Shown one piece after another: positions 5,311 through 31,703 of a stretch of 38,261 nucleotides of DNA. The notes beneath the pieces were generated by a model. The model was not told where the DNA came from, did not search any database, and worked only from the letters and a program-made list of their open reading frames with translations. How positions within the stretch are numbered: position 1 is the stretch's first letter; every line of letters starts with the position of its first letter. This DNA comes from an uncultured Candidatus Melainabacteria bacterium (lineage in GTDB: Bacteria > Cyanobacteriota > Vampirovibrionia > Gastranaerophilales > Gastranaerophilaceae). Made by a program: the position numbers and the translations under genes. Where the stretch lies: positions 1 to 38,261 of the forward strand of contig CANAJP010000014.1 in NCBI GenBank assembly GCA_947361615.1, in the 5' to 3' direction.

Positions 5311-5346
5311 CAAGATGGGGAACCTTTTTTAAGATTCCCCATCTTG
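5311..5346 (-). terminator. Hairpin terminator downstream of pilin 1
   Basis: CAAGATGGGGAA (5311-5322) pairs with TTCCCCATCTTG (5335-5346), a perfect 12-bp stem starting three bases after the pilin stop codon. On the minus strand there is no long T-run after it, so termination there may be imperfect. On the plus strand it is followed by TTACTATCTTTTT. Confidence 0.7.
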
Positions 5347-5349
5347 TTA

Positions 5350-6288
5350 CTATCTTTTTACGCAATGTACGATGTATTCATCTGTCCTAGGGTGTAGCCA
5401 ATGAGCGCCTGATGTAAAACCTTGCGACCAGCCGAGAGTTTTGGTGCTGACTTTTGATGACCAATAATCAGTATTAGAAGTAAATAAATCACCATTAATT
5501 AATTTTTGGTTTACAAACATTGAGCCTAATTCGTCTAATGTAGGAATTCTATATTCAGAGTCCTGTTCTTTGCAAATAGTAGTAGCTCTTTCCTGAGTGG
5601 CTGTTCTATCCGCAGCCCTTTGAGCCGGTAAATTAGGTGCTGCAAGAACGCTGTCCGTAGGGTAAAATATTGTCATAAAACCGATATCTTTTCCAACCGT
5701 ATTAGGACCTTTGTTTCCGTTCATGTCAAAAATAAGGTTTACACATACTTTTGGCTGTGTATAAACTTTTGCGTATGCGGTTTGAGTGTCATATTCATTC
5801 ATATAATATGCGCAGTTTGGATTGTAGAACATTAATATGCTTTCCCCATTTTGGGTTTCAAATGCTGCGGCTTTTGTGTCTAACATTAATCCTGTAGCAT
5901 ACGGGTTGTCTATCATGTAGGAATTTAGCTCTGAAATTTTTGTGGGTGTTGTAAGTGTTGAACCACTTATAGGTACAATTTTGTTTGGTACACCACAATC
6001 AGTTATGTGATTAGCATCGCAAATATTATTTATTTTTAACACTTTGCTAAGCCCAGAAGTGATAAATGTTTCCGCCCCTGTATCTACTGCTTCCGTTGAA
6101 GATGTGCCTGCTGAATATGTACCATATCCGTTCAAGGCAGGCATGAGCGCGATTGCCTGTGAAAATCTTGCGTATAATGCTTTTCGTTGAGTGTTCCAAG
6201 TCCGCTCGTTAATGTTACCTGTCAAACTTGGTAACGTGATAGCCGCAACAACACCGATAATGGTGAGGGATAATAATATCTCTGCCAT
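5350..6288 (-). CDS. Prepilin-like protein 1, start region separated by frame-breaking poly-G tract
   Basis: This open frame begins at an internal Met inside the class III signal segment. The natural N-terminus lies upstream: reading the pilin frame back gives QYQRYA then FTMAEILLSLTIIGVVAA, a classic type IV prepilin site with cleavage before Phe and Glu at +5, then a hydrophobic helix. The real start is probably ATG 6388 or 6385 (after GAAAGGATGGAT). That ATG is one base out of frame because of the 12-G tract at 6325-6336, and a TAA lies just before the tract in the pilin frame. Eleven or fourteen Gs would restore a leader beginning MMKNLKPEKPCHMALLS. The C-terminal part carries the block NGNKGPNTVGKDIG, shared with pilin 2. 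I read it as a phase-variable surface pseudopilin/pilin, drawn in the OFF state. Confidence 0.85.
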   Translation of the reverse strand: MAEILLSLTIIGVVAAITLPSLTGNINERTWNTQRKALYARFSQAIALMPALNGYGTYSAGTSSTEAVDTGAETFITSGLSKVLKINNICDANHITDCGVPNKIVPISGSTLTTPTKISELNSYMIDNPYATGLMLDTKAAAFETQNGESILMFYNPNCAYYMNEYDTQTAYAKVYTQPKVCVNLIFDMNGNKGPNTVGKDIGFMTIFYPTDSVLAAPNLPAQRAADRTATQERATTICKEQDSEYRIPTLDELGSMFVNQKLINGDLFTSNTDYWSSKVSTKTLGWSQGFTSGAHWLHPRTDEYIVHCVKR

Positions 6289-6324
6289 AGTAAATGCATA
6301 ACGTTGGTACTGCGGCTCGCCTTG

Positions 6325-6336
6325 CCCCCCCCCCCC
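6325..6336 (-). repeat. Poly-G (12) contingency tract in pilin 1 leader
   Basis: Twelve C on the plus strand, read as G12 in the gene, about 17 codons after the upstream ATG. The distance from ATG 6388 to pilin codon ATG 6288 is 100 bases, so one G too many or two too few breaks the frame. In the present frame translation runs into a TAA about 40 codons after the tract. Confidence 0.9.
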
Positions 6337-6476
6337 TACTTAACAGGGCCATATGACAAGGCTTTTCAGGTTTTAAGTTTTTCATCATATCCATCCTTTC
6401 TAATTTTGTGGCTGCAAACCAATAATTCTAAATATAGATGTTATATATGTGGCTCAGCCACTCCTTTCATGTTTTT

Positions 6477-6505
6477 ATTATGTACTATGTTTAAAAATAT
6501 GTCAA
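6477..6505 (-). promoter_or_regulatory. Pilin 1 promoter and leader hairpin
   Basis: TTGACA (6505-6500), a 17-base spacer and CATAAT (6482-6477). The TGA of the -35 is the stop codon of mazG. The about 80-base untranslated leader contains GTGGCTGAGCCAC, an inverted repeat near its 5' end. Pilin 2 has the same promoter geometry and a hairpin of different sequence at the same place. Confidence 0.75.
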
Positions 6506-29895: not shown

Positions 29896-30472
29896 AGATG
29901 AAATTATTGAAGTATTGAAAAACGATGGTGTAATTGCGTTTGTGACCGACACGGTCTGGGGTTTGGGCTGTCTTCCAAGCAGTGAAAAAGCTGTGAAAAA
30001 GATTTACGAAATAAAAAAACGTGAAGCGCAAAAACCGCTGATTTTGATGTCAAACGAGGTTTTTCATCTTTTGAAACATGTTGAAGTAATCCCGAAAGTT
30101 GGGCAGCAGCTTATTAAAAAATATTTTCCCGGAGCGCTCACGATTGTGACGAAAAAACATGCGGCCTCAACGCCTGATTACCTTACTTCCGGCATGGAAA
30201 CTGTCGGCATTAGAGTGCCAAATAACGATGTTTTTCGTGAAATTTGCGAAATTACGCCGGATCATGTTCTTGCGACGACGAGTGCGAACTTATCGCACCA
30301 GCCGAGCGCTAAGAGTTATGAACAGGCACTGGAAAACATGTCAGGGCTGGCGGATTTGGTGATAGAGGATTACGGCTGCGAATGCGCGGGACTGGAGTCC
30401 ACAGTCGTTGGAATTTTGGATGATGAAAACTACAAAATCTTCCGCCAGGGGGCGGTCGAAATTACCGTTTAA
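29882..30472 (+). CDS. tsaC: L-threonylcarbamoyladenylate synthase
   Basis: A 196-aa Sua5/YciO/YrdC-family enzyme making the activated intermediate for t6A modification of ANN-decoding tRNAs. Seen: GVIAFVTDTVWGLGCLPSS, KKREAQKPLILMS, FPGALTIV, GIRVPNN and TTSANLSHQPSA. Length fits the short TsaC form rather than the longer Sua5 form. Translation is probably coupled to murJ through the 14-base overlap. Its 3' end overlaps the convergent pilin 2 gene by 11 bases. Confidence 0.93.
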   Translation: MLKNKDEIIEVLKNDGVIAFVTDTVWGLGCLPSSEKAVKKIYEIKKREAQKPLILMSNEVFHLLKHVEVIPKVGQQLIKKYFPGALTIVTKKHAASTPDYLTSGMETVGIRVPNNDVFREICEITPDHVLATTSANLSHQPSAKSYEQALENMSGLADLVIEDYGCECAGLESTVVGILDDENYKIFRQGAVEITV

Positions 30473-31574
30473 TACATCTGACTTCGAGGTTGGAGCCATT
30501 ATCATAAGCGTAAACGTGACCGGAGAGGGTATGGATTCCCCAGGTTCTGCCATTTGGCCCCGCTGAAACGATGGAACTTGACCACAGACGTTTTTCTTCG
30601 GAATTTGCTTCTTCTCCGCTTATCAGACTTCTGTTACAAAATACTGAAATAAGTTCTTCTATGTTTGGAATTCTGCTTTCTGCATCTTGTGCCTTACATA
30701 ATGAAGATGCCTCGGCTTGTGGTTTTGTTCCTGCGCTTTTATTTAATGGCATTGGGGCGACTACCACAGAATCATTCGGGTAAAGCACTGTTATAAAACC
30801 AATATCTTTGCCGACGGTGTTTGGCCCTTTGTTTCCGTTCAAGTCGTATACAAAATTTGCACAAATTTTGGTCTGTGCATTGAACCATCTTGTACCATCT
30901 ACTGCAATACTTGTTTCATTCAAACTGAATCTGCAGGCTGGAGAGTAATATGCGACGATGCTTTCCCCATTTTGTGTTTCAAATGCTGCAGCTTTTGTAT
31001 CAATCTGGGAGTATGACCAAACGCTATGTGCAGAACCGTTAAGTTCAGGTGTGCCGTTAAACATACTGTTAAATTCCACTAATGTTTGCGGAAAATTGGA
31101 GAAAGCTATACTTCCGCTTAAAGCTGTAACTTTGTTTGGGATACCGCAGTTGCTTAAATGTTCATTGTCGCATATATTATTAATTTTTAAGACCTTAGAA
31201 AGCCCTGCGGTCAGGAAAGTTTCGGCGACATTATTAGGGTCACCATCCTCTAATATTCCAAATCCATTGATAGCCGGCATAAGTGCTATAGCCTGTGACA
31301 TTCTGGCGTAAAGCGCTTTACGTTGAGTATTCCAAGTCCGCTCGTTGATGTTACCTGTTAGACTTGGTAACGTGATGGCCGCGACTACACCGATAATTGT
31401 AAGGGATAATAATATCTCTGCCATAGTAAATGCGTAACGTTGGTACTGCGACTCGCGTAAAACGCCACCGCTCGTGCTTGCACGCAAGAACGCGGTCTTC
31501 CGTGTCGCGCACTCGTCTCTCCACTTGCTATCGCAAGTTCCGTGGCTCTGCTCGCCTTGCCCCCCCCCCCCCAC
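30462..31574 (-). CDS. Prepilin-like protein 2, start region separated by frame-breaking poly-G tract
   Basis: A paralogue of pilin 1. From the internal Met at 31424 it shares the prepilin helix, the TWNTQRKALYAR block and NGNKGPNTVGKDIG with pilin 1; the C-terminal third diverges. The frame is open back to a GTG at 31574 that is itself part of the poly-G tract and is unlikely to be the real start. The natural start is ATG 31620 after GAAAGGATTTTG, beginning MKNLKPENPCHMALLS as in pilin 1. That ATG is one base out of frame with 13 Gs; 12 or 15 would join them. The leader also has a 99-base in-frame insertion absent from pilin 1. Interpreted as phase-variable and OFF as drawn. Confidence 0.85.
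   Translation of the reverse strand: MGGGGQGEQSHGTCDSKWRDECATRKTAFLRASTSGGVLRESQYQRYAFTMAEILLSLTIIGVVAAITLPSLTGNINERTWNTQRKALYARMSQAIALMPAINGFGILEDGDPNNVAETFLTAGLSKVLKINNICDNEHLSNCGIPNKVTALSGSIAFSNFPQTLVEFNSMFNGTPELNGSAHSVWSYSQIDTKAAAFETQNGESIVAYYSPACRFSLNETSIAVDGTRWFNAQTKICANFVYDLNGNKGPNTVGKDIGFITVLYPNDSVVVAPMPLNKSAGTKPQAEASSLCKAQDAESRIPNIEELISVFCNRSLISGEEANSEEKRLWSSSIVSAGPNGRTWGIHTLSGHVYAYDNGSNLEVRCIKR
31451..31549 (-). repeat. 99-base in-frame insertion in pilin 2 leader
   Basis: Compared with pilin 1, exactly 99 extra bases (33 codons, no stops in the pilin frame) lie between the poly-G tract and the prepilin cleavage region. The insert is GC-rich and holds the hairpins ACTTGC-GATA-GCAAGT and CTTGC-GT-GCAAG. 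On the coding strand AGCCACGG sits directly before the first hairpin, as in the GC-rich repeat at 35805. Kinship with that repeat is likely but not certain. Confidence 0.6.
31560..31572 (-). repeat. Poly-G (13) contingency tract in pilin 2 leader
   Basis: Thirteen C on the plus strand. Pilin 1 has A plus twelve G over the same 13 positions, so total length, and therefore frame, is the same in the two genes. Confidence 0.9.
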
Positions 31575-31703
31575 TTAACAGGGCCATATGACAAGGGTTT
31601 TCAGGTTTTAAATTTTTCATACTTTACAAAATCCTTTCTTGACGTTTTGTCATTATCTAAATATTGAAGTGCCACAGGCACATTCTTTCATTTGCTCTTA
31701 TTT

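Follow-up and report, generated by a model that had tools for sequence, protein, structure and literature searches.

In Neisseria, the pilus gene pilC, which occurs in one or two copies and encodes a tip and biogenesis protein, undergoes phase variation through a poly-G tract in the part of the gene that encodes the leader. The genes described here share the leader-region G tract with pilC, but they constitute a large family of diversified pilins. The switching of pili by poly-G tracts is as such already known: in Bifidobacterium breve UCC2003 it acts on sortase-dependent pilus operons (PMC9187656). The likeness to our case is close, as B. breve UCC2003 is also a gut commensal, in which the pilin gene is split by a G tract (of approximately 9-12) following the signal region, and the tract length joins the frame (PMC9187656). 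On the other hand, B. breve contains two Gram-positive sortase-pilus operons, whereas here a genome carries about 100 single genes for type IV-like pilins, with a genus-wide bias to one particular frame. The poly-G phasome of Campylobacter comprises many unrelated genes, with tracts mostly of G9-G10 and 5-81 loci per strain; common to both cases are a low-GC genome and many intragenic G tracts of 7-15, mostly with poly-G on the coding strand (PMC6321876), but here a single family contributes about 100 copies, its tracts are longer and the frame bias is strong. In open-access full texts (subscription papers and preprints lie outside this search) we found no report of phase variation or of poly-G pilins in Gastranaerophilales or Melainabacteria, in agreement with the first-pass annotation of this DNA, which knew of no description in the lineage. 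The poly-G pilins appear to be a set of switched surface genes that is very large and has so far not been described.

The pilin locus and its paralogues

The window, i.e. the whole analysed stretch of 38,261 nucleotides, belongs to a genome of the Candidatus Gastranaerophilus lineage (G000; 1.83 Mb in 108 contigs, 95.6% complete). The first-pass annotation had placed on its minus strand a ribosome-binding site, an ATG, a leader, a G12 tract and a type IV prepilin region, and had called the gene (pilin 1) OFF as written, with one G too many; all these elements were found again in the sequence (Table 1). Downstream of the tract the prepilin cleavage region reads CAAGGCGAGCCGCAGTACCAACGTTATGCA^TTTACTATGGCAGAG, and ATG 6388 lies 100 bases (1 mod 3) from the pilin ATG 6288, which leaves the leader frame and the pilin frame disjoined; loss of one G from G12 joins them. 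The window contains just two G/C runs of at least 7 nucleotides, and the placement of G12 in the leader of pilin 1 is not due to chance, because the other run, G13, sits in the leader of a second pilin (30462-31620, minus strand), which follows the same plan and is likewise one G above the in-frame length (the state referred to below as +1, with ON for in-frame copies).

Table 1. Coordinates of the two pilin genes and their elements in the window
Feature	Position	Strand	Remarks
Sigma-70-type promoter of pilin 1, TTGACA-N17-CATAAT	6477..6505	-	read from sequence
Short palindrome GTGGCTGAGCCAC in the 5' UTR of pilin 1	6449..6461	-	read from sequence
Shine-Dalgarno AAAGGA of pilin 1	6394..6399	-	read from sequence
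Start codon 6388 (or 6385) and pre-tract leader of pilin 1, MMKNLKPEKPCHMALLS(R)	6337..6388	-	
G12 tract of pilin 1, one G above the in-frame length	6325..6336	-	
Post-tract leader of pilin 1 in the pilin frame, QGEPQYQRYA	6295..6324	-	predicted to be removed by prepilin peptidase
Mature pilin 1, N-terminus FTMAEILLSLTIIGVVAAITLPSL..., Glu at position 5	5353..6294	-	
Lcl_C / C-type-lectin-like C-terminal domain of pilin 1	5356..5589	-	Pfam Lcl_C and Foldseek
Inverted repeat GATGGGGAA...TTCCCCATC past the pilin 1 stop, terminator-like	5313..5344	-	read by eye, unscored
Second pilin: ATG 31620, leader and G13 (31572-31560), frame +1	31560..31620	-	copy L026
Second pilin: post-tract leader and pilin body	30462..31559	-	

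Pilin 1 has 113 matches in its own genome, of which roughly 90-100 are near full length and mostly 46-68% identical; nearly all are free of internal stops, a single short match being the exception. A 58-residue core probe finds 103 copies in this genome, 100-125 in each of five of the six congeneric species and 18 in the sixth, which has zero G10 words; in other genera of the family the count ranges from 9 to 117. Across 21 genomes the copy number correlates with the number of G10 words (Spearman 0.74). The own genome contains 127 runs of at least G10; most of the internal ones occupy a constant position within pilin leaders, and some others are long, located at contig ends and artefact-like. 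Contigs often break at pilin genes, and several contig ends (L029, L298, L305, L309 and others) show coding-strand runs of about 50 C, which are probably sequencing artefacts at G tracts and match the Illumina artefact termed "G's end" (PMC9187656). The named relatives that possess the family are Gastranaerophilales MAGs, e.g. the koala Candidatus Gastranaerophilus phascolarctosicola Zag_221 (PMC4040986). Many copies are also present in record JAMPIJ010000001.1 (L156), from a MAG titled Fusobacterium sp., which is probably mislabelled.

The copies, analysed on stretches around the genes, share a common anatomy. A strong ribosome-binding site of the AAAGGA/GGAGG type is found in 111 of 117 copies, and in 84 of 117 a sigma-70-like promoter lies no more than 130 nt from the ATG, where shuffling would lead one to expect 0.3; the palindrome in the 5' UTR of pilin 1 is not a general part of the family (7 of 125 copies). 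The pre-tract leader type of pilin 1 recurs in many paralogues. The majority of copies examined carry a G tract in the leader-coding region, mostly G11-G14 (G9-G16 among 122 resolved copies), which is pure and usually begins 27-52 nt from the ATG; between the tract and the pilin the leader continues for 10 to about 590 nt, in the pilin frame, and ends in A/G^FTMAEILLSLTIIGVVAAITLPSL. In the natural short-tract allele L241 the reading is continuous, MKKLNVLISAGGTALSRSSCAFTM. Copies devoid of the tract have ordinary short leaders such as MKKAFTM, and five of them (L045, L115, L137, L187, L222) are presumably always on.

The stretch between tract and pilin is crowded with dispersed repeats, TGTCATCCCGAACTTGTTTC being present in 25 of 85 long inserts. 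The leader inserts, 18.8 kb in all, lack stops altogether in the pilin frame but contain 310 and 345 in the two remaining frames, a count that is conditioned on an open pilin frame; when copies are taken free of such preselection, 117 of 123 have a pilin frame that stays open as far as the tract. We infer that this stretch can tolerate inserts because prepilin peptidase would discard the whole of it. The palindromic repeats (TGTCATCCCGAACTTGTTTC and relatives) are inserted in frame and read as CHPELVSGS or MLNLFQHL; they also occur elsewhere in the window (20614, 32717) and are reminiscent of the Rickettsia palindromic elements. The length of the leader insert differs greatly between orthologues.

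The N-terminus of pilin 1 displays the features of a class III signal, namely (G/A)^F, Glu5 and a hydrophobic helix (A^FTMAEILLSLTIIGVVAAITLPSL), and scores 17.3 bits with TIGR02532 (cut-off 16.3); with Pfam N_methyl it also reaches 17.3, below the cut-off of 21.2. Its C-terminus matches Pfam Lcl_C with 25.5 bits (E 1.8e-5), below the curated cut-off of 34.9. An AlphaFold2 model of pilin 1 has a mean pLDDT of 79, and the best Foldseek match of the C-terminal domain is the C-terminal domain of Legionella Lcl (PDB 8q4e; E 3e-4, probability 1.00, rmsd 2.5), followed by C-type lectins. The two domains share the fold, but here it is carried on a type IV pilin stem, at 19% identity. Since the 40-residue stem is almost invariant across the copies, while much of the C-terminal half is variable, the family appears to combine one conserved assembly part with many binding faces. 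A termite relative has pilA, pilB, pilC, pilT and pilD (PMC5877343). We found no Peptidase_A24 prepilin peptidase in the own assembly (95.6% complete) and one in each of the six congeners; the missing gene is probably in an assembly gap.

Over the first 40 residues, +1 copies agree with the consensus at 0.997 and ON copies at 1.000, while the third codon positions of the core are just 46% identical between paralogues, i.e. near saturation. As this core is nearly invariant, and the inserts are open in the pilin frame only, the out-of-frame genes are not decayed, and purifying selection is equal in +1 and ON copies.

Frame statistics and orthologues

Among 122 fully resolved copies pooled from six species, the frame from the start codon to the pilin is +1 in 90, ON in 23 and -1 in 9; ten copies of Zag_221 with N in the leader and the long poly-C contig ends lie outside this count. 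The commonest tract length depends on the flank sum (start to tract plus tract to pilin): it is G13 when the sum is 0 mod 3 (55 of 82 copies), G12 when it is 1 mod 3 (15 of 18), and G11 or G14 when it is 2 mod 3 (17 of 22). When tract lengths were shuffled among genes within species, the maximum of +1 copies in 20,000 permutations was 69, against 90 observed. A model with a weight on +1 is superior to a free length distribution with a cost of ON (likelihood ratio, p = 6e-15, or p = 2.6e-9 after thinning to one copy per leader and flank type), where both p-values are optimistic, as copies and species are related. The fitted preference for +1 is 11-fold over -1 and 5-fold over ON. The bias is clear in four species (G000, G001, G002, G004); the remaining two, G003 and G005, have seven resolved copies each, with four ON and two +1 in G003.

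Of 22 pairs of positional orthologues with matching 5' flanks, 9 differ in frame (ON versus +1 in 7 of the 9), and tract length among the relatives, which the first-pass annotation had suggested comparing, is not invariant. The 13 pairs that agree equal the expectation for independent draws (12.9), hence the frame is not merely inherited. In five pairs +1 is kept despite unequal tract lengths; pilin 1 itself (G12, flank sum 1 mod 3) has an orthologue in G001 with G11 and a flank sum of 2 mod 3, both being +1. Judging from these comparisons, both the pairs that differ and those that keep their frame with unequal tracts, the frame turns over between species and then returns to one favoured state.

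Several simpler accounts were considered and rejected. A pure mutational equilibrium of tract lengths does not accommodate a preferred length that shifts with flank length. Recent duplication carrying +1 along is at odds with the near saturation of paralogue third positions and with orthologue frames that look independent. Alternative starts in the pilin frame are not available, as in +1 copies this frame closes a few codons upstream of the tract and ATG or GTG occur only sporadically. Finally, a toxic out-of-frame peptide does not account for the avoidance of -1, as the median ORF, 366 aa in frame, is alike in the two other phases (21 aa in +1, 22 aa in -1).

A probable poly-G switch and its alternatives

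We consider it probable that poly-G slippage at the DNA level gates the approximately 100 pilin genes, and that they rest at a length one G longer than ON. The slipped-strand switch put forward in the first-pass annotation thus remains the best explanation, in view of the orthologues that differ in frame, but it had been described for a single gene and in fact concerns about 100 genes per genome, genus-wide. According to this proposal, each of the scattered genes would be transcribed on its own, from a promoter that looks constitutive, and would have a ribosome-binding site and a start codon; its expression would be gated by the length of the G tract in the leader-coding region. Replication slippage by one G would join or disjoin the leader and pilin frames; as most copies rest one G above ON, loss of one G would be the most accessible event and would yield an intact prepilin. 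Prepilin peptidase would then cut at A^F and thereby discard the part encoded upstream, including the tract glycines and the inserts, so that the exposed product would be a pilin with a variable lectin-like C-terminal domain, and cells in a population would bear differing subsets of about 100 surface binders. The analysis establishes the anatomy, the size of the family, the frame statistics, the purifying selection and the unequal tracts of orthologues, whereas slippage within populations, leader cleavage, surface display and the role in binding are inferred. The own genome contains MutS-family genes, so its tracts may slip less readily than those of genomes poor in repair functions.

If switching were random and selection acted only against ON, 90 copies in +1 versus 9 in -1 would not be explained: a memoryless ON/OFF switch predicts equal numbers, and +1 must either be specially selected, as it is one contraction from ON, or be productive through RNA polymerase slippage or +1 frameshifting. 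A bias towards loss of G combined with counter-selection of ON could give the same result, because, of the two OFF lengths that separate one ON length from the next, +1 is the shorter. Slippage in decoding equally could explain it.

The latter leads to the strongest rival of the DNA-level switch, programmed decoding, which we regard as unlikely. Here +1 would be the working state, RNA polymerase slipping by -1 or +2 G or the ribosome shifting by +1 on GGG codons, and a small set amount of pilin would be made from unchanged DNA. In the fuller form of this scenario, which we regard as equally unlikely, about 70% of the 100-member family would be held at +1 and read in this way, giving many lectin-like pilins at low, noisy levels, while DNA slippage would be superimposed on this and fix individual genes in a fully on or fully off state. 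The maintenance of +1 (90 of 122) across near-saturated paralogue divergence and varied flanks speaks for such decoding, as do the purity of the tracts, the equal purifying selection on +1 and ON copies, and the order +1 >> ON > -1, which fits a productive +1 and a truly silent -1. Genes with programmed frameshifting or transcriptional slippage have a conserved frame transition at a homopolymer (PMC3711429, PMC1088944), which the pilin tracts may resemble, but the pilin orthologues also occur in frame, and a product from the out-of-frame pilin template is a prediction of this reading. Frame differences in 9 of 22 orthologue pairs and the ON state of 23 of 122 copies would be needless for a fixed recoding signal; moreover, the right flanks and inserts vary widely, leaving no constant stimulator past the tract, and an Rfam search of the target locus gave zero known RNA elements.

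The possibility that the assembly miscounted, which the first-pass annotation had itself raised, would mean that assemblies systematically add one G and most copies are really ON; we consider this improbable. Illumina reads do fail in G tracts, assembled tract lengths can err, and a reference G11 of B. breve proved to be 60% G12 in culture (PMC9187656); the long C runs at contig ends mentioned above also resemble an Illumina artefact. However, the same assembly also has similar tracts inside non-pilin genes, and 6 out of these 9 are in frame as written, whereas only 6 of 46 pilins are (Fisher p = 0.002, with a small control of nine tracts, to which a wider search for additional non-pilin tracts added nothing useful). 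Furthermore, miscounting would be blind to the reading frame, whereas the observed tract lengths change in step with flank length; +1 prevails in most assemblies of the other species too. Ordinary decay of a dead, expanded pilin family by homopolymer frameshifts agrees with the majority of copies being out of frame as written, but is hardly credible given the almost invariant core at near-saturated third positions, the lack of internal stops in nearly all of the 113 matches, the retained promoters and ribosome-binding sites, and a frame break that falls at the tract.

As a separate observation, at least nine non-pilin genes of the own genome have coding tracts of G10-G14 or C10, mostly in frame (L278, L280, L281, L283, L284, L285, L286, L287, L288), and are candidates for further contingency genes.

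Implications for the family

In practical terms, gene callers will miscall or split many of the poly-G pilins, and MAGs of this genus tend to break there. If the proposed switch is true, these pilins would, by our own count, be among the largest homopolymer-switched gene families in bacteria, in a gut lineage of the cyanobacterial phylum. They also make it possible to study how the resting state of a contingency locus is determined, using about 100 copies side by side in each genome across six species, since the excess of +1 over -1 can be measured and a neutral switch does not predict it.
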